Assembly: GCF_000177335.1 (NCBI RefSeq)
Contig: NZ_ADFP01000061.1
Span: 1-32,359 of the forward strand
DNA length: 32,359 bases
Origin: Pyramidobacter piscolens W5455
GTDB lineage: Bacteria; Synergistota; Synergistia; Synergistales; Dethiosulfovibrionaceae
Direction: 5' to 3'
Shown here: positions 9,068-25,059 of the stretch, one piece after another
Layout of the letters: every line of letters begins with the position of its first letter
Numbering within the stretch: the stretch's first letter is position 1
Made by a program: the position numbers and the translations under genes
The notes under the pieces: model-generated
The model's database searches: none
Seen by the model: only the letters and a program-made list of their open reading frames with translations
What the model was told of the DNA's origin: nothing

Positions 9068-9071
9068 CATG

Positions 9072-9122
9072 AAAAAAGTTCCGCGGGACACCGTTGGGGC
9101 GGTGTCCCGCGGAACTTTTTTT
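9072..9122. terminator. Bidirectional terminator between dinB and cdaR
   Basis: A perfect stem with arm GTTCCGCGGGACACCG (9078-9093 with 9100-9115), loop TTGGGG, A-run at left and T-run at right. It ends both the dinB operon (+) and the convergent regulator gene (-). Confidence 0.95.
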
Positions 9123-9158
9123 ACGCTCCGTCTTCTTTCGGCGTTTCGATCGCCCGCT

Positions 9159-10316
9159 TTATAAATGCAGAGCGCCGGCCGCCGCGTCGGATCTCAGCGT
9201 CTTGTGGATGGCGAGGGCGATCTCGAAAACGGCGGCGTTTCTCAGATCGCGAGGATCGAGGCGGGTCAGCTTGTGGATGCGGCGCAGCCTGTACTGCACG
9301 GTGTTTTTGTGCAGGCAAAGCGCTTTCGCGACGGCTTGAATGGAACCGTTGCCGTGAAAGTAGACGGACAGGAAGTCCATAATCTCGCCGCGGCCGCGCT
9401 CCGAACAGCCGTGAAAAAGATGCGCGATGAAGTCCTGGCGCGCTTTGAGGGGCACTTCGCCGGCGAGAATCTCAAGATCGACGCCGTCATAAAAAGCGCA
9501 GCATTCGCCGTTCCGTACCGCGGCCCGAAGCGCTTTGCCGGCGCGGTCGCAGGCGCCGCGGACGTGCCGGCAGTCGACGGGCTCGGCGTCGATGCCGATA
9601 AAAGAGCGAAAACCGCAGCGCGCCACGTTTTCGCCGATGCGGCCGGCCATTTCGCGCAGTTTTTCCTCGCTGGCGGGCGACACGAAGCAGACATAGCGAA
9701 AGGGCAGCTTGTAGTAAAACCCGTCGGCTGAAGCGCGCACGACCGCACGGATCTGCTCTTCGACGCGGCCGAGCCGTTCCTGTTCGTCCGCCGTCGCGGC
9801 GCTGCCTTCCAGCGCCACGACGAAAATCTGAAACGGCTTACGAAGGTCGATGCCAAGCTCAAGACCGCGCTCGACGAAGCGGTCGGTGATCAGTTCCTCG
9901 GCGGAGAAAAGCCATTCTTCCATGAATTGGCTCCACATCGCGGCGCGTAGTTGTTTCTGACGTTCGCCCCATGAGTCCAGCAGCAGGATCTCAGTCATTT
10001 TCTTGATGATCTGGCTGTATTGCTGCACCTCCTCGCCTCTGCCGGTGATGCCGATCACGCCCGCCGTCGCGCCTTCGAAGCAGACCGGCAGATTGATGCC
10101 CTGGCGCGCGCCCGGATATTCGCCGTCGCAAGTTACGACGAGTTCGCCAAGCCCCTGACGAAGCAGCTCGCGCGCCCCGCCGTGGAACGCGCCGAGGCGC
10201 TCCGGATCGGTGCTGGCGATGATGACGCCGCGCTCGTCCATCATGTTGACGTCGTGCCCGATGATGGAACTCATTTCGGTGACGATGCGCATGGCGCTGT
10301 CGTGAGAGATGTTCAT
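9159..10316 (-). CDS. cdaR: CdaR/PucR-family transcriptional regulator
   Basis: A 385-residue cytoplasmic regulator. The first 135 residues (MNISHDSAMRIVTEMSSIIG, DERGVIIASTDPERLG, GVIGITGRGEEV) match the sugar-diacid recognition domain of CdaR. The middle is a GGDEF-like domain without catalytic residues. The C-terminus carries the PucR-type helix-turn-helix, SIQAVAKALCLHKNTVQYRL, with RR(I)HKLT following. CdaR in E. coli activates glycerate, glucarate and galactarate genes, and here the gene is divergent from glycerate kinase, which supports the same logic. The most likely effector is glycerate or a sugar diacid. Upstream minus-strand TATAAT lies at 10440-10435, and a palindrome at 10453-10462 overlaps the expected -35. 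Confidence 0.88.
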   Translation of the reverse strand: MNISHDSAMRIVTEMSSIIGHDVNMMDERGVIIASTDPERLGAFHGGARELLRQGLGELVVTCDGEYPGARQGINLPVCFEGATAGVIGITGRGEEVQQYSQIIKKMTEILLLDSWGERQKQLRAAMWSQFMEEWLFSAEELITDRFVERGLELGIDLRKPFQIFVVALEGSAATADEQERLGRVEEQIRAVVRASADGFYYKLPFRYVCFVSPASEEKLREMAGRIGENVARCGFRSFIGIDAEPVDCRHVRGACDRAGKALRAAVRNGECCAFYDGVDLEILAGEVPLKARQDFIAHLFHGCSERGRGEIMDFLSVYFHGNGSIQAVAKALCLHKNTVQYRLRRIHKLTRLDPRDLRNAAVFEIALAIHKTLRSDAAAGALHL

Positions 10317-10434
10317 TGAGCCGTTCTCCTCCGTTTGTGATGTGCGAAATCACGCTTCACCCGAAAATAAGCGCTCGACGCGCGACGGTCGACATTGATC
10401 CGGCGCGCACGAGAAATCTATTTTTCATAACAAT

Positions 10435-10440
10435 ATTATA
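10435..10440 (-). promoter_or_regulatory. Candidate -10 of the cdaR promoter
   Basis: Perfect minus-strand TATAAT in an AT-rich divergent spacer. Its -35 position is poor and is covered by the palindrome at 10453-10462, suggesting self-regulation. Confidence 0.4.
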
Positions 10441-10452
10441 CATAAAATTTCA

Positions 10453-10493
10453 TTTCATGAAACATAGTAATCGGACATGAACTTTTTTATAAT
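10453..10493 (+). promoter_or_regulatory. garK: Candidate CdaR operator and garK promoter
   Basis: The perfect palindrome TTTCATGAAA (10453-10462) lies just upstream of a TATAAT at 10488-10493 that has no usable -35 (TAGTAA at 10465-10470). With a start near 10500 the palindrome centres close to -42, the classic place for an activator that contacts polymerase. A weak -35 plus a site there fits activation by CdaR. The operator assignment is inference. Confidence 0.45.
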
Positions 10494-10539
10494 TGTTTTA
10501 CAGGATCCGAAGACTTCGGATGGCAAGGAGACGATCAGC

Positions 10540-11700
10540 GTGAAGATTGTGGTGGCGCCGGATTCATTCAAGGGATGCTGCACGGCCGCGGCCGCTTCGC
10601 GCGCGTTCGCGCAAGGGATCGCAGCCGTTTTTCCGCAGGCGGAAATCGTGCATCTGCCCGTGGGCGACGGCGGCGAAGGCACGGTGGACGCTTTGTTGGC
10701 GGCGCTGGGCGGCACGAAGGAGACAGTCGACGTCACAGGGCCTCTGGGGGAGAGGGCGGCAGCAGTATTTGCGGTGCTGCCCGACGGCACGGCAGTCGTC
10801 GAAGTGGCGTCGGCTTCGGGGCTGCCGCTGGTGCCGCGCGAACGACTGAATCCGCTGATCGCCACGAGCCGTGGCACGGGCGAACTGATTCGGGCCGCCT
10901 TGGACAGAGGCTGCCGGAAGTTCCTCGTCGGCCTCGGCGGTTCGGCGACGAACGACGCGGGCATGGGCATGGCGCAAGCCCTGGGCGTTTCGTTTTTCGA
11001 CGCCGCGGGGCGCGAGCTCGGCCCCGGCGGCGCCGAGCTGGAGCGGCTGGATCACATCGACGTGTCGCGCCTCGACGCGCGGCTGTCGCAAAGCCGCTTC
11101 ACGGCGCTCTGCGACGTGAAAAACCCGCTCTGCGGACCGGACGGCGCGTCGGCGGTCTACGGGCCGCAGAAGGGAGCGACTCCCGAGATGATCGCGCGGC
11201 TTGAAGCGGCGCTGTATCGTTTCGCGCAGATCGCGCGGCGCGACCTGGGGCGCGACGTATTGGCCGTTCCCGGCTCCGGCGCGGCCGGCGGCCTGGGGGC
11301 GGCGCTGGCCCTGTTCTGCGGCGCCCGGATCCAGCCGGGCATCGACACCGTGCTCGAGCTGATCCATTTTGACGCGCACATGAGCGGCTGCGATCTGGTG
11401 ATCACCGGCGAAGGCAGCATCGACGGGCAGTCAGCATACGGCAAAGTACCCGTCGGCGTGGCCCGGAGAGCCAAACGTCACGGGAGGATCCCCGTGGCGG
11501 CCGTCGTCGGCTCCATGAAACCGGGCGCGGAGAAAGCATACGAGTACGGCATCGACGTGATCATGCCGACAGCGACAGGCCCAATGACGCTCGACGAGTC
11601 GATCGCCCGCGCCCCGGAATTGCTGTCCGGCGCGGCGGAACGGCTGATGCGCATCGTCAGAATGATGTTAAAACACGTCCACCTAAGCACAGAACAATGA
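10540..11700 (+). CDS. garK: Glycerate 2-kinase, GarK/GlxK family
   Basis: A 386-residue cytoplasmic kinase of standard length that phosphorylates D-glycerate with ATP, feeding it into glycolysis. Signatures: KIVVAPDSFKG at the N-terminus, LPVGDGGEGT (about 45-54), LGGSATNDAGMGMAQALG in the middle, GSGAAGGLGAAL, and ITGEGSIDGQSAYGKVP near the C-terminus. The start is the GTG at 10540: AAGGAG lies 9 bases upstream, the protein then begins exactly like its relatives, and the in-frame ATG at 10477 lies before the probable transcription start. It is divergent from the CdaR-type gene. Its stop overlaps the ribosome site of the next gene, although base composition changes at that point. Confidence 0.95.
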   Translation: MKIVVAPDSFKGCCTAAAASRAFAQGIAAVFPQAEIVHLPVGDGGEGTVDALLAALGGTKETVDVTGPLGERAAAVFAVLPDGTAVVEVASASGLPLVPRERLNPLIATSRGTGELIRAALDRGCRKFLVGLGGSATNDAGMGMAQALGVSFFDAAGRELGPGGAELERLDHIDVSRLDARLSQSRFTALCDVKNPLCGPDGASAVYGPQKGATPEMIARLEAALYRFAQIARRDLGRDVLAVPGSGAAGGLGAALALFCGARIQPGIDTVLELIHFDAHMSGCDLVITGEGSIDGQSAYGKVPVGVARRAKRHGRIPVAAVVGSMKPGAEKAYEYGIDVIMPTATGPMTLDESIARAPELLSGAAERLMRIVRMMLKHVHLSTEQ

Positions 11701-11710
11701 GGTGACATCA

Positions 11711-12946
11711 GTGAACTTTTTAAGAAAAATCCATATGCCAGTTGCCTTCTATCTGCTCTTGGTCAGCGTTGTACTTTCGCTGGCAACGGGATACGGAGTG
11801 CCGTATCGGCAGTTAATCGAAGGTGAGTTTGGTTATTTGAATATTGTCGTGGTCATCCTGACAGGTGTAATGTTCCTCCGCGTTTATGAAGCTAGTGGCG
11901 CAATTGACCTGTTGATGCAGCGCTTGGCCCGTATGATGGACCGTCATCCGTCGTTTTTCCTGTTTACTGTCATGGCGCTGCTCTATATACCTGGTATGTT
12001 TACCGGTTTAGGAGTTCCAGCCGTGTTGATCATTGGCGGGCTGGCCTATCCATTGCTGATAGAAATGGGCTTCGTTCCTGAAAAAGCGGTGGCTTTTATA
12101 TCTCTCGGCGCCATGCTGGGCAGCGTTACCGGGCCGCTCAATATCCCTGTTATGATCATTGCCTGTGCAATTAACATGCCTTATGAAGGGTTTGGACTCG
12201 TTCTGCCAGCAATTACAATTCCATTGGGAATCATAATCGTATTGTGTATGGGGACTAAGACAGCACACCGTTTTAAAACATCTGAGAATCATAAGTTGAC
12301 GAACAATCCACTCTCTAGTGCTCTAAAACCTGTTGTATACCTCCCCATCTTTGTACTCCTTCTGCTGATTGGCCTGCCCCGTGCATTCCCCAGACAGGTT
12401 CCCGACCTTGGCACACCGTTGGCGTTCACAACAGCCATGTTATGTGTGTTACTGACAGGACATGTCAAAGGCATGGGGACGGTGTTGCTCAGATCGATCG
12501 ACAATCCCGTGCTCGACACAGCGGCACTGCTCCTTAGCGTCGGTGTTCTGGTGCAGATCGCAACGTTGACCGGCATCAAAGGTGACATCATCACCTCTTG
12601 TATGAGCCTGCCGCCAGTTGGTATTTATCTGGTTCTGCTGGTTGCGCTGCCGTTGTTGGGCGGTGCGGTTTCCATGCTAGGCGGTGCAGCGCTGTTTGGA
12701 CTGCCGTTGGTTCTGGCTCTGCTGGGACATAACACAATCGTGGTTACGGCCGGTTGCTCGGTACTGTGTGCTTTGAGCCAGCTTATTCCGCCCACAGCCA
12801 TCGTGAGCAAGGTCGCCGGTGAAGTGCTGGGGGTCAATGATTACGGCAAGATCTTGCATTCCATGATGCCGTATATCATCATGATCGCTCTGCTCTCGCT
12901 GCTTTTCGTGATTTTTTCCAACACGATTGCTCGTGTATTCGTATAG
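11711..12946 (+). CDS. DctM-like permease of the ion-transporter superfamily
   Basis: A 411-residue protein with 11-12 membrane spans, resembling the large permease subunit of TRAP transporters. Two similar halves each contain a glycine/proline turn: GLGVPAVLIIGGLAYPL with GSVTGPLNIPVMIIA in the first, and LIPPTAIVSKVAGEVLG in the second, the latter like the DctM 'PP-S/T' hairpin. No DctP binding protein or DctQ is adjacent; a 53-residue two-span protein follows directly. The substrate is probably an organic anion or small acylated amino acid, judged only from the hydrolases downstream. Start: GTG 11711, with GAGGTGA six bases upstream; that site overlaps the garK stop, so translation may be coupled. 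An in-frame GTG at 11702 lies inside the site. Confidence 0.7.
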   Translation: MNFLRKIHMPVAFYLLLVSVVLSLATGYGVPYRQLIEGEFGYLNIVVVILTGVMFLRVYEASGAIDLLMQRLARMMDRHPSFFLFTVMALLYIPGMFTGLGVPAVLIIGGLAYPLLIEMGFVPEKAVAFISLGAMLGSVTGPLNIPVMIIACAINMPYEGFGLVLPAITIPLGIIIVLCMGTKTAHRFKTSENHKLTNNPLSSALKPVVYLPIFVLLLLIGLPRAFPRQVPDLGTPLAFTTAMLCVLLTGHVKGMGTVLLRSIDNPVLDTAALLLSVGVLVQIATLTGIKGDIITSCMSLPPVGIYLVLLVALPLLGGAVSMLGGAALFGLPLVLALLGHNTIVVTAGCSVLCALSQLIPPTAIVSKVAGEVLGVNDYGKILHSMMPYIIMIALLSLLFVIFSNTIARVFV

Positions 12947-12960
12947 GTGGTGGTTTGAAA

Positions 12961-13122
12961 ATGGGCATTTATGATGGAATCACATGGTGCTACCGTCTCA
13001 TTTTCATCCTGATAGCTATGCTGTTCGCCGTTAATATCTTCAGGCATAATTCGATGACGAAAAAAATTCTCGGTATCATCGTTCTATTGCCATTGTTGCT
13101 GCGCCTGTTCAACATCAAATAG
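12961..13122 (+). CDS. 53-residue two-span membrane protein
   Basis: Begins MGIYDGITWCYR, followed by a hydrophobic helix (LIFILIAMLFAVNIF), a short basic loop (RHNSMTKK) and a second helix (ILGIIVLLPLLLRLF). The ribosome site AGGTGGTGG (12945-12953) overlaps the end of the permease gene, and the stop at 13120-13122 overlaps the ribosome site of the next gene. Tight packing in an operon supports real translation. It could be a small accessory subunit of the permease, but it is far shorter than DctQ (normally four spans). Family not recognised. Confidence 0.7.
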   Translation: MGIYDGITWCYRLIFILIAMLFAVNIFRHNSMTKKILGIIVLLPLLLRLFNIK

Positions 13123-13134
13123 GTGGCGGAGACC

Positions 13135-14286
13135 ATGGATAAAAGAATCTTTTCCTCCGACAATCTCATCAAATCGCTCTGCGCATTTGCCGTTCTTGGC
13201 GGACTGTTCGTCGGCAGTCGGAAGATTTTCATCGAATCGAGACAACAGTTCCCTATTTATCCTAGCGCTGCTCTGACTCGTATCGCCCGTCTCAGCGAAT
13301 ATTTCGACGGCGTCCGAGGGACGACAGCCGACGGTGAGGTTTATGTGTTCGACAGCGGCATGTCCGGCGCTTCTATGCTAATCCTCGGCGGCACACATAA
13401 CGACGAGCCTTCAGGTCACGTCGCCGCAATTGTGATGATTGAAAATCTTCGCGTGAAAAAAGGACGCATTTTTATCGTACCACGCGCCAATCCCAGCGGT
13501 CTGACACATACAACGCCACTGGAAGGTTTCCTCGACCGCTATTACGTTGATACACCGAACGGCAAACGCTGGTTCAAGTTCGGTTCGCGCTACACCAACC
13601 CCATCTACCAGTGGCCAGACCCCGATATTTTTGTACATCACCAATCGTTGCAGAGCATGGCTGGCGAAGAATCGCGCAATCTGAACCGCTGCTGGCCCGG
13701 CCGTCCTGACGGTACCTATACGGAAAAGCTCGCATACGCTTATATGGAACTGATGCGCAAGGAAAAAATTGATCTTGCCGCCGACTTTCACGAAGCGCCG
13801 TTGGAATATTTCTTAATCAACGCTATCTGCTATCCCGAGAAGAGCAACAAAGTGGCGTTGGGAGCCGAATTCAACCTCTCCATGGAAGATCTGCAGTACA
13901 CCATGGAGGCCTCTCCAAGCAACCTTCATGGATTCTTTCATCGCGAAGTTGGCGATTACTCCCCCACAACCATGCCGTTCCTGATGGAAACGCCCAATCC
14001 GTCACAGGGTCGTTTCCATGGCAAAATGACAAACGACTTGATCGTAACCGGTCGGGATACAAACTATATCAAAGCCGGCAAACTGGGACGCCTGTTCGTT
14101 AATATGGATGAAAATGGTTGGCCATTGTCGTTGCGCGTCGCACGTCAGATCAAGAGCGCTGAAGAAATTATCAATTCCTTTAATGAGCTTTATCCAGATC
14201 GCGCCATTGAAGCAGAGGGCATTCCGCCGTACAGGGAAGTTGTGGAAAAAGGTGTGGGAGCCTTCCTTCACGCACCAGAGAAATAA
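13135..14286 (+). CDS. Membrane-anchored succinylglutamate desuccinylase/aspartoacylase-like enzyme
   Basis: A 383-residue protein with one N-terminal membrane helix (LIKSLCAFAVLGGLFVG, residues 11-27) and a zinc-carboxypeptidase-like catalytic domain. The zinc ligands of the AstE/AspA family are visible: GGTHNDEPSG (His88, Glu91) and DFHEAP (His219), with the catalytic Glu expected downstream. NLNRCWPG (182-189) matches the substrate-binding N-LNR-FPG segment. These enzymes remove an acyl group from N-acyl amino acids. The single helix would place the enzyme on the outer face of the inner membrane (cytoplasmic relatives lack it). ATG 13135 has AGGTGG 8 bases upstream. Neighbours are a permease and secreted hydrolases, suggesting extracytoplasmic deacylation followed by uptake. 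Confidence 0.82.
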   Translation: MDKRIFSSDNLIKSLCAFAVLGGLFVGSRKIFIESRQQFPIYPSAALTRIARLSEYFDGVRGTTADGEVYVFDSGMSGASMLILGGTHNDEPSGHVAAIVMIENLRVKKGRIFIVPRANPSGLTHTTPLEGFLDRYYVDTPNGKRWFKFGSRYTNPIYQWPDPDIFVHHQSLQSMAGEESRNLNRCWPGRPDGTYTEKLAYAYMELMRKEKIDLAADFHEAPLEYFLINAICYPEKSNKVALGAEFNLSMEDLQYTMEASPSNLHGFFHREVGDYSPTTMPFLMETPNPSQGRFHGKMTNDLIVTGRDTNYIKAGKLGRLFVNMDENGWPLSLRVARQIKSAEEIINSFNELYPDRAIEAEGIPPYREVVEKGVGAFLHAPEK

Positions 14287-14319
14287 AACGATATTGTTAT
14301 ATTGTAAGGAGGAATCATT

Positions 14320-14874
14320 GTGAAAACGCTGAAAGTTGCCATTTTTATTCTTCTGACCATAATGCTCATGACAGGTTCCGCTCTTGCACAGAATACCTTT
14401 GAGGCACCTGTGCTCATCACGTCAGCCGGTCAAAGCATCGAAGCGGCCACCGTAAATTTTCACTTTGAAAAGGCCAACATCAAGACCATTTTAGAAAATC
14501 TAGCCAAGCCCGCCAAGCTCGAAGGCATTAAAACTCTTGTTATCGTTCCCGGACACAGCCTGAAAGGCCTCGGCAGCGCTGGCATCGATGAAACATCCGA
14601 GTTGACTCGCGTCAACGATCTGGTCGAAGCCGCCCACACCGCTGGTATCCCCATCATTTGCGTCCACATTGGGGGCAAAGCCCGACGCGGGACCACCTCG
14701 CAACCTTTTATCGAAGCAAGTATGAAATACGCGGCCACCTGCATCGTTTATGATGCTGGCAATGAAGATGGTTACTTCACTGATACCTGTGCAAAGAATA
14801 ACATTCCGTTGATCACTATGCCCAAGGCTGCCTTCCTCGCCAGGAACCTAAAAAAACTGTTCCCCAACCAGTAA
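14320..14874 (+). CDS. Secreted protein of unknown function, 184 residues
   Basis: Sec signal peptide (MKTLKVAIFILLTIMLMTGS, cleavage likely after ALA23). The mature part is a compact alpha/beta domain with two Gly-rich motifs, IVPGHSLKGLGSAGID (about 76-91) and HIGGKARRG (about 119-127), followed by NEDGYFTDTCAKNNIPL. The layout resembles a Rossmann-like or flavodoxin-like sheet. I think it belongs to a small domain-of-unknown-function family (possibly DUF6305), but this is from memory and unchecked. AAGGAGG lies 7 bases before GTG 14320. It could be a periplasmic ligand-binding or accessory protein for the adjacent hydrolases; nothing catalytic is evident. Confidence 0.78.
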   Translation: MKTLKVAIFILLTIMLMTGSALAQNTFEAPVLITSAGQSIEAATVNFHFEKANIKTILENLAKPAKLEGIKTLVIVPGHSLKGLGSAGIDETSELTRVNDLVEAAHTAGIPIICVHIGGKARRGTTSQPFIEASMKYAATCIVYDAGNEDGYFTDTCAKNNIPLITMPKAAFLARNLKKLFPNQ

Positions 14875-14887
14875 ATTCGCAAAAACT

Positions 14888-14927
14888 AGGTGCAATACAG
14901 GCACCGCGGCAATACGACTTGGTGCCT
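14888..14927 (+). promoter_or_regulatory. Leader with alternative hairpins before the C69 gene
   Basis: Three related arms: GGTGC (14889-14893), AGGCACC (14899-14905) and GGTGCCT (14921-14927). The middle arm can pair with either neighbour, and GCAATAC is repeated at 14892 and 14909. No T-run follows, so this is more likely an RNA processing or translation-control structure than a terminator. Confidence 0.35.
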
Positions 14928-14976
14928 TCAGGGAAAAGTTTTAAACGTTGTTCAATTTATGAAAGGAGAATGTTCT

Positions 14977-16443
14977 ATGCGTAACGGACTCAGAAAGTTA
15001 AGTGTTGCTATGGCTATTGTTTCTTTGGTTGCTAGTGTGGCCGCAGCATGTGACATGGTTGTCGTTACCCCTAAGGGTAGCGCTGACGGCAACATGATGT
15101 GGGCCAAAAATAGCAATCGGAACAACGAAGAGTGCATGACCTTCAAGTTCCATCAAGGTGGCAATCATGCCGTCGGCGAGACCGTCAAAGTCAGCCACTG
15201 CAAAATTCCCCAAGCTCCTGTTACTTACTCCGTGATTGGCGCTGAACCCTACTGGGGCTGGGGTGGCGAGATCGAAATGAATGAAAAAGGCGTCTGTTGC
15301 GGAAACGAATTGATCCTTACCAAAGACCCTGTTCATCATGAGGAAGAGGGTATGAATGGCCATGACCTGAACCGGCTTGCTGTTGAGCGCGGCGCCACCG
15401 CTTATGAAGCTATGCATGTCATCATTGACATGATCGAAAAATACGGTCAGGGAGGCAATGCCAATCCTCCCAGCACTTCCGATCTATACGTATACTGGAA
15501 TTCCTTTCTGATCGTTGATCCTCATGAGGCTTGGGTGCTTGAGACCTCAGACCGCCGCTGGATCGCCCGCAAGATCGATCCTAATGAAGGTGTTTTCGCC
15601 CTCACCAACATGTGCTCCATCGGCGCTGTTTACGATGAGTGCAGCGAGGACCTGATCCAGCATGCCATCGACAAGGGCTGGCATGCCGCTGGTGACGAAT
15701 TCAACTTCTTCAAAGTTTACAGCCAGATCAACCCTCGCCCCAATTTTGAGACTAAAGGCCGCCGTGCTTATGACATGCTTGCCAAGAAAATGGGTAAGAT
15801 CGTCCCCTCAGACATCATGGAAGTTATGAGAGACAACAAACTGGCCGGTTCGTTCCTCGAATCACGTTTCGGCATGGCCAAGGTCACTCGCGCCCTCAGC
15901 GAGCATATGATCGGCAACAGCATTGCCGGCAGCGCCGTCGTTCAGATGCGCACGAATCCCGAGATTCCTGAAGCGATGCGTACGCTGATCTGGGCCGCCA
16001 TGGCTTCGCCAGACTGCTCCGGTTATCGTCCGTTCTACTTTTGCGCCAAAGTTCCTGAAGAGCTTTCCATTGGTGAAAATACCTATGACATCAAGTCGCC
16101 TTGGTGGTGCTTCGATATGCTCGATCGCATGGCTCGTGCTAACGAAGATTGCTACTTCGACGTGCTCAAGGCTATCTGGACGCCTTACGAAAACCGCATG
16201 TTCAACGAGAACAAGATGATGGAAAAGCAGGCTATCAAATTGTTCGACGCAGGTAAAGACGAGGAAGCAAAAAAACTTATCAGCGACTTCGTCCAAACTT
16301 ACTGTGACAAGAGCTGGGACATCGCCAAGGGACTTCAGGGCGTGTTCAAGGAACTCAACAAGGTCGTCCCTGGCCCCAAGGTCAACCTGATTGATCCTGA
16401 AGGCGTCAGCAACAAAAACGCCAAGGTCATTCTGTTCCAGTAG
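14977..16443 (+). CDS. Secreted secernin-like C69-family Ntn-hydrolase
   Basis: A 488-residue protein: Sec signal peptide (residues 1-24, ending ASVAAA), then Cys25-Asp at the start of the mature domain. From there it matches secernin/C69 peptidases: CDMVVVTPKGSADGNMMWAK, PVTYSVIGAEPYWGWGGEIE, MNEKGVCCGNE, IIDMIEKYGQGGN, WNSFLIVDPHEAWVLET. C69 enzymes are N-terminal-nucleophile amidases/dipeptidases that use an N-terminal Cys. Here signal-peptide removal would itself free that Cys, so secretion could activate the enzyme. AAAGGAG lies 8 bases before ATG 14977; the in-frame ATG at 14959 contains that site. The sequence favours codons such as GCT, CCT and ATC unlike the GC-rich flanks. The substrate is probably a peptide or N-acyl amino acid. 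Confidence 0.85.
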   Translation: MRNGLRKLSVAMAIVSLVASVAAACDMVVVTPKGSADGNMMWAKNSNRNNEECMTFKFHQGGNHAVGETVKVSHCKIPQAPVTYSVIGAEPYWGWGGEIEMNEKGVCCGNELILTKDPVHHEEEGMNGHDLNRLAVERGATAYEAMHVIIDMIEKYGQGGNANPPSTSDLYVYWNSFLIVDPHEAWVLETSDRRWIARKIDPNEGVFALTNMCSIGAVYDECSEDLIQHAIDKGWHAAGDEFNFFKVYSQINPRPNFETKGRRAYDMLAKKMGKIVPSDIMEVMRDNKLAGSFLESRFGMAKVTRALSEHMIGNSIAGSAVVQMRTNPEIPEAMRTLIWAAMASPDCSGYRPFYFCAKVPEELSIGENTYDIKSPWWCFDMLDRMARANEDCYFDVLKAIWTPYENRMFNENKMMEKQAIKLFDAGKDEEAKKLISDFVQTYCDKSWDIAKGLQGVFKELNKVVPGPKVNLIDPEGVSNKNAKVILFQ

Positions 16444-16489
16444 CATCCACATGTCATACTGATTTTTTTATAGAAAGCATTAACGGTTT

Positions 16490-16556
16490 GCAGGACACTG
16501 CGAGAGAGTTCAGTCGAGACAGACCTGAGCGGCTGAACTCTTTTACAGTGCCCTTG
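16490..16556 (+). terminator. Extended hairpin after the C69 gene
   Basis: A core stem AGAGTTCAG/CTGAACTCT (16505-16513 with 16533-16541) is followed by TTT; outer pairing CACTG/CAGTG (16496-16500 with 16546-16550) extends it. It is likely a terminator dividing the low-GC region into two transcription units. A T-run at 16463-16469 lies just before it. Confidence 0.55.
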
Positions 16557-16571
16557 CGTTCGCTCTTCTAA

Positions 16572-16599
16572 TTGAGAAACAGCATTATCATTTTATTCT
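16572..16599 (+). promoter_or_regulatory. Candidate promoter of the Tat cassette
   Basis: TTGAGA (16572-16577) and TATTCT (16594-16599), spacer 16, located after the terminator and 60 bases before the 28-residue reading frame. Confidence 0.4.
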
Positions 16600-16658
16600 C
16601 GCGTCATTGGTGGAATAAGAGCTTATCAGTAAATCTTGTCGCTGAAAGGAGTTATAAA

Positions 16659-16745
16659 ATGAAATATTCAGCCGGTCTGATTGTCGGCCTTTGTGTTGGA
16701 ACCGCGGCTTTTGCCGTCATTGTTATGCTGTGCCTGCATTGCTAA
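16659..16745 (+). CDS. 28-residue single-span membrane peptide
   Basis: Reads MKYSAGLIVGLCVGTAAF followed by AVIVMLCLHC. AAAGGAG (16645-16651) lies 7 bases before the ATG, a strong site. The peptide is one hydrophobic helix with Cys near the middle and at the C-terminus (His-Cys end). It precedes the Tat-exported enzyme by 36 bases. Too short for family assignment; a regulatory or complex-stabilising membrane peptide is possible. Confidence 0.5.
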   Translation: MKYSAGLIVGLCVGTAAFAVIVMLCLHC

Positions 16746-16781
16746 AAAGCACAAAATTGTTGAGAAGGAGAAAGACACATC

Positions 16782-17867
16782 ATGGATGACATGAACAGAA
16801 GAGATTTCATCAAAGGAGCCAGCGTTGGCACATTAGGTGCTTTTTTAGCAAGTGGCGGCATTGCTTCCACTTTTCTCCGAGATCGTCTGATCCCCAAACC
16901 CGCAAAGCCCACTGTCGAAATCGGCGAGCTGAAAAGTATTCACGTCAAGTGCATTACTGAAACCAGCTGGTTCGACAATTATGTGCAGCAGCAGGATTTT
17001 AAAAAGGCAGGCGGAGCGCTTGTACAGCAATATGATGTCAAGTTCAGCCATACCGGCGTGAAAGAGGGCTTTGAGGGCGACAACGCCGGTGGATATTCAG
17101 CGCTGATAGAGTTTGAGTTTATGAACGGAGACCGCAAGAAGGTACTTCTCGATACTGGCTGGAACAACAAGTGGATGACCAAACGCTTTGAAGAGGAAGG
17201 CATTGACGCGATGCTCCGCAGCGGCGAGATCGACACGCTGATCATCTCACATGACCACTATGACCACTACTGGGGCATCCAGACAACTCTCCAGTGGAAA
17301 CCGGATATTACTCTGTACATCCCTGACTCGTTCCGCAAAGAAAGCTACCAACTGCTCTCGGGGGCCGACTTCCCCAAGCCGCCTATTTCCAACACAGTGC
17401 CGTTTAAGGGCGAATTGAAAAAGTTCGCTCTGAAGAAGGTTCACAAAATTTTCCCCGGCGTGTCGTTGGTTGCTTTTGACTGTCCGTGCGGACGCGGAGT
17501 GTTCGGCGAAGAAGTGCTTGTCTGCAATGTTGCCGGCAAAGGGCTTGTGACAATATCAGGATGCTGCCACATGGGACTTTTGTCACTGCTCAACTTCACG
17601 AAGAACAACTTTATCGGCGGAGACAAGATTTACGGCGTTTACGGCGGAGTCCATATCTCTCCCTACGACAACTGGAATCCTGCCAACGACGATTTGGTAC
17701 GCTCGATCAACAACTATCATGTAGAAAAACTCGGCGTCAATCACTGCACCGGCTATATCACGGTTGAAAAAATGATAGCCGCAGGTGTCCCAGTCATCAA
17801 AGGCACTGCACGCAATAAGACAAAAAGAGATCTTTATCTGGGCAACGGCGATGAGATTTTCTTCTAA
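16782..17867 (+). CDS. Tat-exported metallo-beta-lactamase-fold hydrolase
   Basis: A 361-residue protein. The N-terminus has a twin-arginine signal, NRRDFIKGA (5-13), followed by a mildly hydrophobic stretch GTLGAFLASGGIAS. The catalytic domain carries the two-metal motif SHDHYDHYWG (156-165; His157, His159, Asp161, His162), SGCCHMG (259-265, His263), YGGVHIS (287-293, His291) and NHCTG (320-324, His321). The last three motifs match the subfamily typified by archaeal MJ0301 (annotated as dihydropterin-aminobenzene-phosphate synthase-like), normally cytoplasmic. Export through Tat implies folding with metal inside the cell. AAGGAG lies 11 bases before ATG 16782. It is followed by a membrane protein and, three genes on, by TatA and TatC, its probable exporter. 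Confidence 0.87.
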   Translation: MDDMNRRDFIKGASVGTLGAFLASGGIASTFLRDRLIPKPAKPTVEIGELKSIHVKCITETSWFDNYVQQQDFKKAGGALVQQYDVKFSHTGVKEGFEGDNAGGYSALIEFEFMNGDRKKVLLDTGWNNKWMTKRFEEEGIDAMLRSGEIDTLIISHDHYDHYWGIQTTLQWKPDITLYIPDSFRKESYQLLSGADFPKPPISNTVPFKGELKKFALKKVHKIFPGVSLVAFDCPCGRGVFGEEVLVCNVAGKGLVTISGCCHMGLLSLLNFTKNNFIGGDKIYGVYGGVHISPYDNWNPANDDLVRSINNYHVEKLGVNHCTGYITVEKMIAAGVPVIKGTARNKTKRDLYLGNGDEIFF

Positions 17868-17879
17868 GGAGAATGACAA

Positions 17880-19139
17880 ATGAAAATTGAAAACTGGACT
17901 GAAAAAAGGAAACTCGCGCCCCGAGGAGGCGTCTTTGTCGCAGGACTGGTTGATCTGATCCTTATGCTGGCGGTCTTCATGGGGATTTGGTACGTGTTCA
18001 TGGATCCCCGCGGCATTCTACGCATGTACACGCCGATGTATGGCTATGCCTATGTTCAGTGGTTCCTTGTCTCGGTGCTGACCGCACATTTCGTATTCCG
18101 TCTCTGTCCGTTCCAGAACAGCTCATTCCTCACAAAAACCCCTCCTTTGATCAAAGGGCTCCTGTTCTCGATCGTTGCAGCAGCACTGATGCTCCTTATC
18201 GTCGATGGAATCTTCAAGATCGTCCTCGGCAATCTGGCAGTTCCTTACTTCAGCGAGGAAACGCTTCTGTCTCTGAAACAGAACGCTTTTACAGCCCGTG
18301 AATACGCGCACCAGGCGATCACTATGTATGGCGGAATCACGGCGCTGTTTATTCCGCTTTGGATCATCCACCTAAACAACTGGCCTGCCTGTGAGATTCA
18401 CAGTTACAAAGGCTACCTGACAAGCTTTTTCATTATCTTCGCGCTGGCAGGCTTTGGCTTCCTGATTCTCTTCCACCCTCACATGGGCGTGCTGTTTTAT
18501 CCCTGGCAGACGTGGACGGCCGTTGCTCCATGGTGGGAAGATTACGCACAAACGCTCAGCGGCAATTTCTGCCTTGGCGGCGTCATGTGCTGGACGGCTG
18601 TAATGTGGATCTTCAATGTCACATTTGAGGGATATCCCTTCAAAAAGATCAAGGCGCAGCCGTGGCGGGCACTGGCCGGCATTTTCGGCACTTTGCTCGT
18701 TGCCGTGATTTTCTTCAAAGTGTTCCTGCTGCTTCAGGACCTTGTCTGGGGCGTGCCGATCCGCGGCAGTCAGCTGCTCATGGCGGTTGATTGGCGTTAC
18801 CTGCACAGCGGCGAATGCGCTATGTTCATGCTTCTTATCGCGCTGGTGTGGGGATTCTATTTTGACAACTGGCCGAGAAAATACACTTTCGAGGCAAACG
18901 TCCTCATTCGCTTCGTTATAATCTGCATGCTGACGTTCGCATTTTATGTCTTCTACTACAGATATAACCCTGAAATTCTCGGCCAGCAGACAGGCTACTC
19001 CAATCCCCTGCAGTATCCGCTTGCAGCTACGAGTCTCATCGTCGCACTGCTTCTTGCGCACAATTGGTTCTTCGACCTGACTCCTGGCTATAAGGTCGTA
19101 AACAAGGACGAGTTTGCCAACTCCAGCGAGAAGCAGTAA
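17880..19139 (+). CDS. Unrecognised polytopic membrane protein, about ten spans
   Basis: A 419-residue protein with hydrophobic segments near residues 15-40, 54-76, 88-115, 141-162, 176-195, 229-248, 264-290, 307-327, 338-360 and 379-400. It is rich in Trp and aromatic residues, with conserved-looking pieces WIIHLNNWPACEIHSYKG, LFYPWQTWTAVAPWWEDYAQ and YFDNWPRKYTFEA between spans; the first and last contain His, Cys or acidic residues suited to ligand or metal contact. I cannot place it in a known transporter family. Its ribosome site TAAGGAG overlaps the stop of the Tat-exported hydrolase (12-base gap), so the two are probably made together. A role as membrane partner or importer of the hydrolase product is inference. 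Confidence 0.75.
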   Translation: MKIENWTEKRKLAPRGGVFVAGLVDLILMLAVFMGIWYVFMDPRGILRMYTPMYGYAYVQWFLVSVLTAHFVFRLCPFQNSSFLTKTPPLIKGLLFSIVAAALMLLIVDGIFKIVLGNLAVPYFSEETLLSLKQNAFTAREYAHQAITMYGGITALFIPLWIIHLNNWPACEIHSYKGYLTSFFIIFALAGFGFLILFHPHMGVLFYPWQTWTAVAPWWEDYAQTLSGNFCLGGVMCWTAVMWIFNVTFEGYPFKKIKAQPWRALAGIFGTLLVAVIFFKVFLLLQDLVWGVPIRGSQLLMAVDWRYLHSGECAMFMLLIALVWGFYFDNWPRKYTFEANVLIRFVIICMLTFAFYVFYYRYNPEILGQQTGYSNPLQYPLAATSLIVALLLAHNWFFDLTPGYKVVNKDEFANSSEKQ

Positions 19140-19147
19140 AATCAAGC

Positions 19148-19426
19148 ATGGATCCGTCGCGCAGGCACTTTTTAAAACGAGGGCTCTTGGATTATCTGGC
19201 AGAATCGTGCGCCTCATTTCGTGAAGAATGCAAAACAGTTTCTCAGAACAGGGAGGAATCGCTCGATCGTTACTTTTTAACCGACGACGCCTGCCAGGCG
19301 CTTCTTGCGGATTACACACTAGAAGATCTGCAGGAGGATGCCAGAAAAGCAGGTATAGATCCGGACGGTCTTAGCAAGAGAGAACTCGCAAAAAAACTCT
19401 TTTCTAAATCTGAAGAATTAAATTAA
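19148..19426 (+). CDS. 92-residue protein with twin-arginine-like N-terminus
   Basis: Starts MDPSRRHFLKRGLLDYLAES: the S-RR-x-F-L-K consensus of Tat signals is perfect at residues 4-10, but no hydrophobic segment follows; the next residues are amphipathic and charged. The C-terminal part, YTLEDLQEDARKAGIDPDG then SKRELAKKLFS, looks like a helix-extension-helix (SAP/Rho-N-like) module. No signal cleavage site. Start ATG 19148 is 8 bases after the previous stop and has only a weak ribosome site, suggesting coupling. It lies directly before tatA. It could be a Tat-docking or assembly factor, a signal-binding decoy, or a soluble redox-associated protein; none is proven. Confidence 0.72.
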   Translation: MDPSRRHFLKRGLLDYLAESCASFREECKTVSQNREESLDRYFLTDDACQALLADYTLEDLQEDARKAGIDPDGLSKRELAKKLFSKSEELN

Positions 19427-19437
19427 AGGAGTAAAAA

Positions 19438-19593
19438 ATGGGAAATCTCGGTTTTTCTGAATTATTCTTGATCTTGGTTGTCTGCCTTGTTATTTTCGGC
19501 CCCGCCAAACTGCCGGAGATTGGCAAAGCAGCTGGTAAAGCTATCAGAGAATTCAAATCGGCCGTCAACAGCAACGATGAGCGCAAGGACTAG
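19438..19593 (+). CDS. tatA: Twin-arginine translocase subunit TatA (short)
   Basis: A 51-residue protein: polar start with Glu8, one membrane helix (FLILVVCLVIF), the invariant FG hinge (Phe20-Gly21) and amphipathic helix KLPEIGKAAGKAIREFK, then a short charged tail. These are the hallmarks of the TatA/E pore-forming subunit of the inner-membrane Tat translocase. It is shorter than most TatA proteins, the acidic tail being reduced to SNDERKD. AAAGGAG (19425-19431) overlaps the preceding stop and lies 6 bases before ATG 19438. tatC follows after 39 bases; no tatB is present, giving a minimal TatAC system in which TatA would do both jobs. Confidence 0.95.
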   Translation: MGNLGFSELFLILVVCLVIFGPAKLPEIGKAAGKAIREFKSAVNSNDERKD

Positions 19594-19632
19594 CGAAAAC
19601 GACATTTCCGCATTCTCCCTAGAGGCAATGCA

Positions 19633-20382
19633 ATGGAGGAGTTGAAAAAAAGCGACGTTATTAAGCATCTTTCAGCTTTACGCCGTCTTATTCTCGTTTC
19701 ACTCCTCCTTGTCATCGTAGGAACTGTTTCTATTTATGCGTTTGCTTATGATTTTGCACAGAATGTATCTTTAGCTCCGCTCAAAGCCCTTAACATAACA
19801 CCGGTGGTCATTGGCGTAGCTGAAGGGTTTATGGTGAAGCTGAAGCTGTCATTTAGTTTGGGCTTTTTCGTTTCTCTGCCAGCGCTTATCTTTTTGCTCC
19901 TGCTGTTCATCTTTCCCGCTCTTTACAGAAGAGAAAAGCTGCCCGCAATCATCCTCTGTGTCGCTGGAACGGGGCTGTTCATTACCGGAGTCTTTCTTTC
20001 CTACAGGTACATCGTAGGACTTGCACTGAGATTCTTCCTGCTTGAGCAGGCACCCGGCTTTCAGGTTGTTCTCTCATATGAACGATACTTTTCGTTCCTG
20101 CTGAATTTTTTGTGGCCTTTCGGCATTCTGATGGAACTGCCTCTTGTCGTTTTCATCCTGACGAGTTTGGGATTATTAAGACCCGCATGGCTCAGAAAAG
20201 TCCGCAAATATGTATTCGTTATATCCTTCATCGCCGGCGCTTTATTAACGCCGCCTGATGTCGTGTCTCAGGTGATGCTGGCGATACCAATCATTGTCTT
20301 TTATGAGATTTCAATCTGGATTTCCGTCTTCACATGCTGGCTAAAAAAGCCAAGGAAGAAAGAGCTTTCAGCAGAGGAATAG
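19633..20382 (+). CDS. tatC: Twin-arginine translocase subunit TatC with altered signal-binding motif
   Basis: A 249-residue inner-membrane protein with six spans, the signal-peptide receptor of the Tat pathway. Family features: KHLSALRRLI (11-20), SLAPLKAL (46-53), FIFPALYRREK (92-102, Glu101 equals E. coli Glu103), ILMELP (165-170, Glu169) and LLTPPDVVSQ (204-213, Asp209). Oddity: in the HLxELR motif the Glu that equals E. coli Glu15, one of two acidic residues contacting the twin arginines, is Ala15 here. The residue equal to Gln90 is Leu. AGAGG lies 8 bases before ATG 19633. Together with tatA it closes the low-GC operon; a terminator follows. Confidence 0.95.
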   Translation: MEELKKSDVIKHLSALRRLILVSLLLVIVGTVSIYAFAYDFAQNVSLAPLKALNITPVVIGVAEGFMVKLKLSFSLGFFVSLPALIFLLLLFIFPALYRREKLPAIILCVAGTGLFITGVFLSYRYIVGLALRFFLLEQAPGFQVVLSYERYFSFLLNFLWPFGILMELPLVVFILTSLGLLRPAWLRKVRKYVFVISFIAGALLTPPDVVSQVMLAIPIIVFYEISIWISVFTCWLKKPRKKELSAEE

Positions 20383-20391
20383 CAGAATTGC

Positions 20392-20436
20392 AATGGAGCT
20401 TCCCGAAAGGATTTCGGAAGGCCCCATTTCTTTTTC
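20392..20436 (+). terminator. Intrinsic terminator after tatC
   Basis: Stem CTTCCCGAAA/TTTCGGAAG (one bulged C), with outer pairing AATGG/CCATT, followed by TTCTTTTTCT. It ends the low-GC operon. Confidence 0.8.
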
Positions 20437-20461
20437 TCTTCATCTCTTTATAGAACGATAG

Positions 20462-20507
20462 GACGGCCGAAACGCAGAAGGAAAATTCCCTTCGCGTTTC
20501 GGCCGTC
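20462..20507. other. Long hairpin between tatC and the RND gene
   Basis: Arms GACGGCCGAAACGC (20462-20475) and GCGTTTCGGCCGTC (20494-20507) with inner GAAGG/CCTTC give 19 pairs with one bulge. There are few T on either side; it may protect the 3' end of the RND mRNA on the minus strand. Confidence 0.55.
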
Positions 20508-20574
20508 TTATCTTCCGCGCCAAACGCCGGCGTCCGTTTTTTCAGTCCGGCCGCCGCGGCGCGGACGCTTTCGG

Positions 20575-23500
20575 TCAGCCGCGTTTTTTCGGCAGGCAGG
20601 GGACTTTGTAGACGACGGCGGTGAGGACGGGGATGACGATCAGCGTCAGGATGGTGCTGACGGTGAGTCCGGCCATGATGGTCACGGCCATGGGGCCGAA
20701 CATCAGGTCCCAGATCAGCGGGACCATGCCGAGCACGGTGGTGAGCGCCGACATGGCGACGGGGCGCAGGCGGCCGACGCCGTCTTCGACGATGGCTTCG
20801 TAACGGTCGCGTCCGGCGGCGAAATCGGCGCTGACTTGATCGAGCAGTACGATCGAGTTCTTGGCCAGCATGCCGACAAGGCTGAGCGTGCCGATGATGG
20901 CCAGAAAGCTCATGCTCATGCCCGCCAGCCACAGGCCGCCGACGACGCCGATGAGGATCAGCGGCAGCACGCCGAAGATGATCAGCGGCTGGCGGAAGCC
21001 GTTGAACAGGAACACCATGATCGTGAACATGGTCAGCAGCGCGGGCAGAAAGGCCACCTTCATGCCGCCAATAGCGTCGTCGGAAAGTTCCTTTTCGCCG
21101 CCCCATTCCAGCGAGTAGCCGACGGGCAGCTCGATGGCCTCGATCGGGGCGCGTACGCGCTCCAGCATGGCGTCGGCGTTGTGCCCGAGCTTGACTTCGC
21201 TGGCTACGGTGAGCACGCGGCTGCGGTTGCGGCGCATGACGATATTGTCTTCGTAGTCCACGTCGAGCGACGAGATCACGGTGCCCAGCGGCACGGTGGC
21301 GTTCGCGGCCGGCGCCCAGACGGGCAGCGATTTGATCCGGTCGATCCGATTGCGCTGTTCGGGCACGAGGGCCGCCATGATCGCCAGCGTCTTGTCGCCG
21401 TCGCGGAAGGCGCCGATCGGCAGCCCCGTGGTGGCGATGAGCAAAGCCTGGTTGAGCTGCGGGCGCGTCAGGCCGAGATTCTGCATCTGATCCTTGAGCA
21501 CGCGCGGATGGATCACTTCCACGGGCTGGCGCCAGTCGAGACGCGCGAAGTTGTGGCTGGGATCGGCCTCGACGATGCGCAGCGCCTGCTCGCCCAGATC
21601 GCGCAGCACGGCCGGATCCTCGCCGTAAAAGCGGGCTTCGAGTTTCGGCGCCATGCCGCTGCCCTTGGAGAAGAGCTTGCACACGCCCGTCAGTTGCGGC
21701 ATTTCTTCGTCGAGGCGCTGCTGCGTTCGCAGCAGCATGGCGCGGGTGTCTTCGGGATCTTTCATCTCCACCAGCAACTGCGCGTAGGCCGTGTCGGGAT
21801 CGGGCGGCGAATAGGTGAGCATAAAGCGCAGGCTGCCACCGCCGATGAAATCGGTAACGTTTTTCACGTTGGGCTGCGCGCGCAAAAACTGATCCAGCTC
21901 CATGGCGGCCGAACGTTGCGCCGCCAGCGACGCGCCCTCGTCGCTCCACAGATCGACGGTGTAGTAGGCCGTGTTGGCGTCCGGGAAGAACGACGTGTCA
22001 AGGCGCGCCAGCCCCCAGCAGGAGAGCGCGAACAGCGCCGCCGCCAGCGCCATCGAGAGAAAACGATGGCGCAGGCAGCCTTCGAGCAGGGCGCGGTACG
22101 CGCGGAACAATGGCCGGTCGTAAGGATCGTCCTTCTGCTTCGACGGCTTGAGCATGATCTGCCCGAAAACGGGCGTCACCGTCAGCGCCGCGCCCCAGCT
22201 CAGCATCATGGAAATGCCCACAACCTGGAGCAGCGAGCGGCAGAATTCGCCGGTGCTGTCCTGCGACAGGCCGATGGGGACGAAGGCCAGCACGGCGATG
22301 AAAGTGCCGCCCAGCATGGCCCATTTGGAGCCTTCCACGGCCTGATCGGCGGCGTCTTCGATGTCCATGCCGCGTTCCACGCCGACGAGCATGCTCTCGG
22401 AAACGACGATGGCGTTGTCCACCAGCGAGCCGAGCGCGATGATCAACGCTCCGAGCGACACAATTTGCAGGAACACGCCGCAGGCGTTCATGAAAACGAA
22501 TGTGCCCGCCACGGTGAGCAGCAGCACGGCGCCGATGATCAGCCCGGTGCGCATGCCCATGAACACGAGCAGCACGCCGACGACGATGGCCAGCGACTCG
22601 ATCAGGTTGACGATGAAATCCTGCACCGATCGCGTCACTTGGTCGGACTGCATGTAGATCTCGTTCAGTTCCATGCCGATCGGGCGGTGCACTTCCAGCT
22701 CGCGCAGGCGCTTCGAAACGCTCTCGCCCATCGTTACGACGTTGCCGCCGGTGACCGTGGCGATGCCGATGCCCAGCGCCGGACGGCCGTTGAAGCGCAT
22801 CATGAAACTCTGCGGGTCGACGAAATCGCGGCGCACGGTCGCCACCTCGCGCAGGCGGATCAGCTGCCCGCCGACTCCGCCGATGACGAGATCGCCGATG
22901 TCGTCCACCGACATGATGGCGCCCGTCGGCGAGACGCGCACAAAGCGGTCGCCCAGCGTCGTCGTGCCCAGAGCCGAGAGCGTGTTCTGCTGGTTCAGCA
23001 CGTTGAAGATGGCATTCGGCGCCAGCCCCAGCGACGACAGGCGCGTAGCCGAGAACTCCACGTAAACGGCTTCTTTCTGCTCGCCGAGAATCTTCACGCT
23101 GGCCACGCCGGGCACGAGCACGAGCTGCTTTTTGAGAAAATCGGCGTAGTCCCACAGCTCTTTCATCGTGTAGCCGTCGCCGACGAGGGCGTAATACTGA
23201 CCGTAAACGTCGCCGAAGTCGTTGTCGACCATGATCGCGCTGCCCGCGGGCATGGAGACCTGCACATCGTTCAGCTTCTGGCGCAGCACGTCCCAGATCT
23301 CCGGCAAATCTTTCGACGTGTATTTGTCCTTGATGTCCACGTAGACGATGGCCATGCCGGGCACGGAACGCGAGCGGAGGCGCTTGATCTCGCCCATGGC
23401 CTGCACGGCGTCCTCGACGCGGCTGGTCGCCTCGCGTTCCACCTCGTAAGCCGTGGAGCCGGGATAGACGATGGTGACCACGGCGGTCTTGATCGTGAAG

Positions 23501-24785: not shown

Positions 24786-24863
24786 CCTCATTCCTCCAGT
24801 GCCATCCGTTCGCTTTCGCAGGCGGCGCTCCGCGCCCGCTGATTCAACAAACTCATCGCGTTG

Positions 24864-24872
24864 ATTGTATCA
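24864..24872 (-). promoter_or_regulatory. Candidate extended -10 promoter of the RND operon
   Basis: Minus-strand TGATACAAT (TGn plus TACAAT), about 80 bases before the adaptor start; no good -35, as is usual for extended -10 promoters. Confidence 0.4.
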
Positions 24873-24979
24873 CGCGCGCCCGGCCTTTGCACGGACGGCG
24901 CGGGAAGATTTTCCGCCATGCCATGCGCGCCCCGCGGCGGGCGATTTTATGAAAAGAGCTTTTTGAACCGCGCCCGACG

Positions 24980-25031
24980 AAAAGCGGCCGGAAGCCGATG
25001 GATTCTCGATCATCAGCCTCCGGCCGCTTTC
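24980..25031 (-). terminator. Long hairpin ending the second Sel1 gene
   Basis: An outer stem AAAGCGGCCGGA/TCCGGCCGCTTT continues inward as GGCTGATG/CATCGGCT (one G-T pair), about 20 pairs in all. The minus strand continues TTTTCG after it. It lies between parS and the RND operon. Confidence 0.75.
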
Positions 25032-25033
25032 GG

Positions 25034-25049: not shown

Positions 25050-25059
25050 TCGTTGCCGG

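Follow-up and report, generated by a model that had tools for sequence, protein, structure and literature searches.

Several described loci bring genes of the twin-arginine translocation (Tat) pathway together with a cargo of their own. The MIC island of Methanococcus maripaludis OS7 is described without transposition genes, carries a metalloenzyme with a Tat signal along with TatA and TatC, and has direct repeats through which it is lost (PMC6181927). A Tat cargo, its membrane partner and tatAC form one apparent operon in Desulfofundulus salinum (PMC10924467). In Bacilli, tatC genes adjoin their own substrates phoD and ywbN, and TatCy is reported to have been gained by lateral transfer (PMC3827258). 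The locus compared with these systems lies on contig NZ_ADFP01000061.1 of Pyramidobacter piscolens W5455, analysed over 32,359 nucleotides (hereafter the window). It is an inserted cassette of about 3994 bp (16468..20461, plus strand) encoding a 28-residue microprotein, a Tat-signal metalloprotein of the metallo-β-lactamase (MBL) fold, a ten-span membrane protein of an unnamed family (p419), a 92-residue protein (p92), TatA and TatC.

Of these, the MIC island comes nearest as a precedent for Tat cargo and TatAC moving together as one unit. It differs in being archaeal and 12 kb long, with a [NiFe] hydrogenase and its maturation protease as cargo, and the available part of the report names no MBL–p419 pair among the MIC genes (PMC6181927). 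The Desulfofundulus module consists of two genes, for a tail-anchored iron–sulfur protein and a cytochrome b (PMC10924467), and the Bacilli tatC loci involve other substrates and Bacilli isoforms (PMC3827258).

It is judged probable that an older hydrolase operon of the genus was joined by a later imported 4.0-kb cassette for a cell-envelope metalloenzyme complex with its own TatA and TatC. Evenly balanced is the wider proposal of an unnamed envelope system across phyla, in which a Tat-exported MBL and the new p419 family would be served by p92 and by c5 or CobW proteins, and which would bring TatAC into lineages devoid of Tat. If this is true, a membrane translocase travels between phyla as the accessory of a single cargo. 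No description of an MBL–p419–CobW system was found in an open-licence library, as judged by titles and abstract openings.

Two adjoining units in the low-GC block

The cassette forms the right half of a block (11701-20436) with a GC content of 49.1%, compared with 62.8% to the left and 64.1% to the right; 600-base windows within the block range from 43.5 to 54.5%. At third codon positions the block's eight larger genes have a GC of 0.43-0.66, versus 0.77-0.88 in the three neighbouring genes measured. Eleven plus-strand genes lie between a glycerate kinase gene (10477-11700) and an RND gene on the minus strand (20575-23616). Both the gene run and the deviating GC and codon choice had been described in a sequence-only reading of this DNA and were confirmed. 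Its protein descriptions were also right where Pfam and NCBIfam scans gave names, namely a DctM-like permease (under cut-off), AstE/AspA, DUF6305, C69, the Tat-signal MBL, TatA and TatC. No family over cut-off was obtained in these scans for p419, p92 and the two tiny membrane proteins, which fits the unknown ten-span protein of that reading.

The same reading treated the eleven genes as one module, probably acquired horizontally. The block proved to be two adjoining units, an older hydrolase operon and the 4-kb imported cassette: the sister genomes G116 and G114 carry the first five genes without the last six, and the genes of the block as a whole do not stay together in related genomes. Horizontal acquisition holds for the right half, while import of the left half was not shown; the apparent island is split into an inherited and an imported part. 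In the alignment with G116, window positions 7838-16467 are followed by 20462-27149, and in that with G114, 7838-16464 by 20464 onward. At the empty site of both sisters about 19-23 unrelated bases replace 16468-20461. The flanks on both sides are continuous and 90-93% identical to the sisters.

A repeat search detected the 9-bp direct repeat TTTATAGAA on the plus strand at the left (16467..16475) and right (20447..20455) edges of the insertion, where the earlier reading had seen no direct repeats. These two are the only copies in the window. As a control for chance, pairs of 40-base windows were drawn at random from the block; 21 of 4000 had at least 9 bases in common, pairs less than 200 bases apart being skipped yet counted among the 4000. 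Since TTTATAGAA is missing from the relatives' sites, the repeat is taken as suggestive. No integrase was found among the plus-strand genes of the block scanned with Pfam, no mobility gene among the six of the cassette, and the block has no tRNA, which agrees with what had been reported from the letters.

Both ends of the cassette carry predicted RNA structure on the plus strand. A strong hairpin region between the C69 gene and the microprotein (16480..16580, -40.1 kcal/mol), within the insertion, is terminator- or attenuator-like, and a hairpin with a T-rich tract after tatC (20390..20440, -16.1 kcal/mol) resembles an intrinsic terminator closing the cassette. A riboswitch in the former was considered and dropped, Rfam giving no match at E ≤ 1 in 11000-20600. 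The long hairpin at 20458..20512 (no strand assigned, -43.3 kcal/mol) belongs to the old site, being aligned in G116 and G114 as well, and is probably a shared terminator of the C69 and RND operons.

Of 185 genomes from the phylum, a single one has p419. The MBL had no close match among them, other matches listed being 23-41% identical over parts of the protein. TatC occurs in 68 of the 185 genomes but in only one of the 14 belonging to the family, some of them incomplete, and that one is the host itself. In trees of TatC and of MBL plus p419, the nearest sampled relatives of the cassette lie outside the phylum. The host's cassette TatC groups with the cassette TatC of genome G185 (support 95/91), apart from 12 TatCs sampled from its own phylum; in the MBL plus p419 tree, computed from 65 rows by a quick method with SH-aLRT support only, the host joins G185 (99) and then G186 (100). 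Horizontal acquisition of the cassette is supported because of the empty site in two sisters, the single p419 among 185 genomes, the single TatC among 14 and the tree relatives beyond the phylum. As in a genomic island, a discrete insertion with cargo and TatAC is missing in close relatives.

The putatively exported metalloprotein and its proposed membrane partner

The MBL gene (16782..17867, plus strand) encodes 361 residues and matched PF00753 over cut-off. The protein has the HxHxDH motif and further metal-binding His residues; H157, H159, D161, H162, H263, H291 and H321 are invariant in the 44 of 99 rows aligned, truncated open reading frames (ORFs) and L132, with an early stop, being left out. 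Its model (pLDDT 89.7, with a low-confidence leader) shows the MBL fold. Sequence profile and fold both place it nearest to 7dck, 2p4z and 3h3e, and Foldseek matched it to the phosphodiesterase tw9814 (PDB 7dck) with E 1e-18 at 19% identity. The cassette MBL differs from tw9814 and its relatives in being longer, in its 18-19% identity, and in having a twin-arginine (RR) leader and a linked membrane protein; the likeness is one of fold only, and the protein may be a tw9814-like phosphodiesterase. The leader matched TAT_signal (PF10518) with 24.7 bits over a cut-off of 22.7 in one scan and with 19.9 bits, under cut-off, in another; TIGR01409 gave 18.6 bits over 16.7. The MBL is a predicted Tat substrate. 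A role in defence was tried and rejected: the only PADLOC matches were weak ones (E 0.001 and 0.004), both falling on the HxHxDH stretch.

Adjoining the MBL gene, p419 (17880..19139, plus strand) was modelled with ten long helices (pLDDT 85.3, pTM 0.89), and a positive-inside count favoured a cytoplasmic N-terminus in 57 of 57 members, the full-length rows retained from 58. With that orientation the invariant residues Q210, W219, W305, R306, H309 and E312 would lie on the outer side, and R263 and R344 would be directed toward the inside. The host p419 matched no Pfam family over cut-off. Across the 57 members Pfam gave scattered weak matches, the commonest being Ureide_permease in six (best E 0.00022), and the best NCBIfam E-value was 0.0058. 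Foldseek listed 580 PDB matches at E ≤ 10, none at E ≤ 0.001. VIA-align 2, whose scores mean little for helical models, placed a de novo helical barrel first (Z 9.4; next 5.0).

The first alternative to a hydrolase complex, an unlikely one, is that the MBL bears a redox-active metal centre and p419 is an NrfD/ActC-like quinone-binding subunit, the two forming a small respiratory complex. Many carriers are, by name, sulfate, sulfur or metal reducers, Tat export is typical for redox enzymes, and a distant p419 adjoins probable fumarate reductase/succinate dehydrogenase genes (locus L248, named by eye). C chains of alternative complex III (ActC) reached Foldseek ranks 1, 4 and 10 for p419 (best E 0.029); however, the TM-scores were 0.14-0.16 and the ActC rows did not stand out. 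VIA-align 2, whose result speaks neither way, listed no ActC row. NrfD is not among the eight Pfam families listed for the 57 p419 members at E ≤ 0.1. The cassette also encodes no haem, iron–sulfur or molybdenum protein, and the nearest relatives of the MBL are hydrolases.

A ComEC-like function, with an outer-face MBL nuclease and a membrane channel processing or importing nucleic acid or nucleotides, is quite improbable. An enzyme with a polytopic protein is the same layout, the nearest solved fold is a phosphodiesterase, and 29 of 44 MBL members matched TIGR00361 (ComEC_Rec2) at E ≤ 0.001 (best E 1.6e-8). The match of the cassette MBL, however, covers only residues 117-187 around HxHxDH, with 24.0 bits where 190 would be required; no competence domain was recognised in p419, and no competence genes were noticed nearby, no dedicated search having been made.

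Linkage of the MBL to p419 was assessed through the motif H[DE]HxDH[YF]WG, which in genome contigs marked at least 116 stretches, a sample rather than a census. At least 114 of these encode an MBL relative at ≥60 bits, and 113 were kept after one with an early stop was dropped; the loci are pieces of at most 8 kb, often cut. Among the matches listed, p419 is present in 62 of the 113 loci, in every case sharing the strand of the MBL and lying no more than 220 bases from it. The carriers listed include Thermodesulfobacteriota, Campylobacterota, alpha- and gammaproteobacteria, Deferribacteraceae, Anaerolineaceae, Negativicutes and Clostridia. The recurrence points to a conserved envelope system in many anaerobes with a membrane family unnamed in Pfam and NCBIfam scans. 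The distribution of p419 is sparse and patchy: it was found in 7 of 398 genomes sampled from the phylum of G185, five of them distant, and in 31 of 395 from that of G202, 12 at E below 1e-219. It was present in all 30 genomes of a chosen carrier set, which gives no frequency. A single-sequence p419 search of genome contigs gave 34 pattern stretches, none a relative. Searches of this kind found p419 neither on plasmids nor in viral contigs, where the MBL and its motif were not found either. Plasmid searches with tblastn returned five distant records for the MBL and none for p92, and 109 TatC records were all below 60% identity.

The microprotein (16659..16745, plus strand), a single-span protein of a size easily skipped by gene callers, was matched with E 1.3e-5 by a hidden Markov model (HMM) built without it, the match sitting in a longer frame whose end is the microprotein. 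A simple hydrophobicity filter detected counterparts upstream of the MBL in seven of nine close loci, and an HMM recovered the remaining two (E 8e-10 and 2e-15). In 40 of 45 p419s with an extra C-terminal helix, this tail is the best HMM site in the protein (best E 1.4e-7). Where p419 has no tail, a separate microprotein ORF is present in 9 of 11 loci, five of the nine being among the eight sequences of the HMM itself and one being weak (E 0.063); the two loci without it (L091, L107) have divergent p419s. Conversely, of the 45 tail-bearing loci 24 were tested, and none showed a separate microprotein ORF at E ≤ 0.01. By computation, the microprotein is the counterpart of an eleventh helix fused to p419 elsewhere. 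Fusion in one lineage with separation in another is a classical sign of physical partnership, and a complex of p419 and the microprotein is accordingly predicted.

Genes around the pair vary with the lineage. A Proteobacteria-like layout reads p92, p419, MBL and CobW fusion, and a Firmicutes-type layout typically reads p92, c5, microprotein, MBL, p419, TatA and TatC; exceptions are L199, with sensor genes in between, and G185, with p92 and c5 behind p419. In the host the order is microprotein, MBL, p419, p92, TatA and TatC. The host p92 (19148..19426, plus strand), whose family was found among relatives, matched nothing in Pfam, NCBIfam or PADLOC; an SRRxFLK-like start is followed by weak hydrophobicity, as if a Tat-like motif had little signal-peptide core. 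CobW-type GTPases have been linked to metallocentre assembly (PMC2770081), and the fusion gene beside the MBL in relatives resembles them in its GTPase domain (PF02492/PF07683); it differs from COG0523/CobW by an extra N-terminal c5 domain, and the host cassette has no GTPase. Profile comparison aligned c5 with that N-terminal domain at an hhalign probability of 99.6% (E 1e-23), which by computation makes the two the same domain.

Several further observations concern these families. An RRxF[FL]-like start is common among p92 proteins, and three of the four measured show weak hydrophobicity behind it; the host value is 0.17 and one of the four reaches 1.03, while MBL leaders average 1.49. The c5 proteins of L202, L206 and L226 have a Cys/His-rich stretch, seen in several Firmicutes-type loci, a possible metal-binding loop. 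Regulators encoded near the cassettes scanned included GntR-FCD, a sigma-54 response regulator, and PAS/GAF and Cache-domain sensors; ExbB-like genes, named by eye, occur in L105, L111, L137 and L141. In the nearest relative (L148, G185:C93:11452-12655) the p419 frame is broken near its 3' end, either in the assembly or in the gene. Accumulibacter/Competibacter-type genomes (L083, L103, L139, L157, L160 and similar) carry an MBL of the same family without an RR leader and without p419 in the piece, perhaps a cytoplasmic offshoot; it adjoins a gene that clusters with a Nitro_FeMo-Co (PF02579) protein. Distant p419 relatives, in turn, exist without this MBL. The one in G369 (L245:1246-9592) adjoins two B12-binding proteins, a GntR-like gene, a RACo-type corrinoid activator and a pterin-binding protein. 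G361 has three distant paralogues (L249, L250, L251; 74-85% alike mutually), and next to the L249 copy is a different sort of MBL-fold gene (Lactamase_B E 7.8e-19, ODP). A transport role for p419 would fit these scattered contexts.

Tat genes as a possible accessory of one cargo

The translocase genes close the cassette on the plus strand, and both products scored over curated cut-offs. TatA (19438..19593) matched PF02416 with 71.3 bits (cut-off 21) and TIGR01411 with 63.5 (53.9); TatC (19633..20382) matched PF00902 with 169.3 bits (25.1) and TIGR00945 with 152.2 (132.7). Apart from the MBL leader, no TAT_signal match over cut-off was found in the six genus genomes, so the specificity of TatAC could be studied here with one substrate. 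p92 stands far down the same list (E 1.2). A second weak match in the host genome (G000:C24:23758-23790, E 0.007, under cut-off) lies in a 75-residue frame, possibly a further Tat cargo.

Among the matches listed, RRxF occurs within the first 40 residues in all 62 MBLs linked to p419, versus 14 of 47 without a p419 match in the piece. In 8 of 10 genomes with a Tat-bearing cassette (the host, G187, G189, G190, G191, G192, G193 and G494) no TatC was found besides that of the cassette, while in 7 of 8 genomes with Tat-less cassettes a TatC is encoded elsewhere (G186, G194, G195, G202, G204, G208 and G213). The contrast, 8/10 versus 1/8, gives a two-sided Fisher p of 0.015, a value that overstates independence, the 18 genomes being related and partly incomplete. 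It suggests that Tat can be acquired as the private accessory of one cargo.

In the complex proposed above, the MBL would fold and take up metal in the cytoplasm, and the cassette TatA and TatC, carried along because the family has no other TatC, would export the folded protein through its twin-arginine leader. It would then act together with p419 on the outer side of the inner membrane, the microprotein completing p419 as an eleventh helix. p92, with the c5 domain or the c5–CobW fusion in relatives, would be accessory, in metal supply, assembly or proofreading. The likely chemistry would be hydrolysis of a small substrate outside the cytoplasm, with p419 binding or carrying the substrate or its product.

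A number of results weigh against this proposal. p419 has no recognisable transporter or enzyme family, and 51 of the 113 MBL relatives have, among the matches listed, no p419 in the piece read. About 23 of the 40 HMM matches in the p419 tail have E-values above 0.01, and a model of hydrophobic sequence can pick up any helix. The host cassette is without c5 and CobW, a c5 profile search of its genome, made without a positive control, finding nothing; the metal-supply step may be missing here or be done by another protein. A second TatC is present in G185 and G188, and G212 has an MBL with an RR leader and no TatC found. In both trees the host sits on a long branch, and the tree program flagged the placement of its TatC as unsure. 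Nor do the cassette TatCs form one clade: those of G189, G190, G191 and G193 fall together with five of the 12 TatCs sampled from the phylum (99/97), which implies repeated joining or replacement of Tat genes.

The left operon and the glycerate kinase–RND interval

The left operon (11702-16443, plus strand) starts with a DctM-like permease of 414 residues (11702..12946; PF06808 19.4 bits, under the cut-off of 23.8; 95-99% identical in G114/G116) and an ORF for a 53-residue membrane protein without a Pfam match (12961..13122; 92-94% in G114/G116, 62-68% in G117/G118). A membrane-anchored AstE/AspA-type metallo-deacylase follows (13123..14286; PF24827 35.8 bits, cut-off 25), then a DUF6305 protein with a Sec-type leader recognised by eye (14320..14874; PF19823 E 1.9e-44) and a C69 peptidase starting at the ATG at 14977 (14977..16443; PF03577 E 3.1e-18), in which the Cys after the leader would presumably be the N-terminal nucleophile.

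The operon is an element of the genus whose GC is low in three closely related genomes. Its five genes are syntenic in G116 and G114 at 92-99% identity, in the order glycerate kinase, permease, small membrane protein, AstE, DUF6305, C69, RND, and the set is present in five of six genomes of the genus. AstE orthologues are 96-97% identical in G116/G114 and 82% in G117/G118, a close one occurring in four of the five remaining genus members. In both G117 and G118 the set comes after a CdaR gene, and its GC of 58.1% and 62.4% compares with 57-60% in their own neighbouring pieces. With GC near that of its surroundings there, and presence across the genus, a recent import of the left half is not indicated. 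The permease adjoins AstE in 26 of 29 AstE loci read, four of them orthologues, so this gene pair is found repeatedly in the phylum.

Uptake of acylated amino acids, offered by the sequence-only reading to explain the whole block, may suit the left operon, and nothing ties it to the MBL cassette. A single module of eleven jointly acquired genes, serving to hydrolyse and take up acylated amino acids or peptides, is very doubtful. Hydrolases are combined with a permease, and the two halves lie on one strand with similarly low GC (50.0% left, 48.1% right), but their separate histories in the sister genomes already contradict joint acquisition. Nor are MBL–p419 relatives linked to AstE, DUF6305 and C69 in the loci searched: together with the permease, these had no match in 80 MBL loci at E ≤ 0.01 and labelled no gene across 31 wider MBL loci. 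A 4-kb piece from another organism, through misassembly or contamination, is highly improbable even in a genome of 140 contigs with a contamination estimate of 1.29% and p419 in none of the other phylum genomes searched, since the sister-like flanks run on, the two junctions coincide with a single empty site, and the piece carries open genes with a terminator-like end of its own.

The older operon and the imported cassette share a site that differs again in another member of the genus. In G115 the interval between glycerate kinase and RND holds another insert of about 2.9 kb (L227:10305-13250) with a GC of 61% and a different C69-type gene (about 32-42% identity), which marks the interval as a variable slot.

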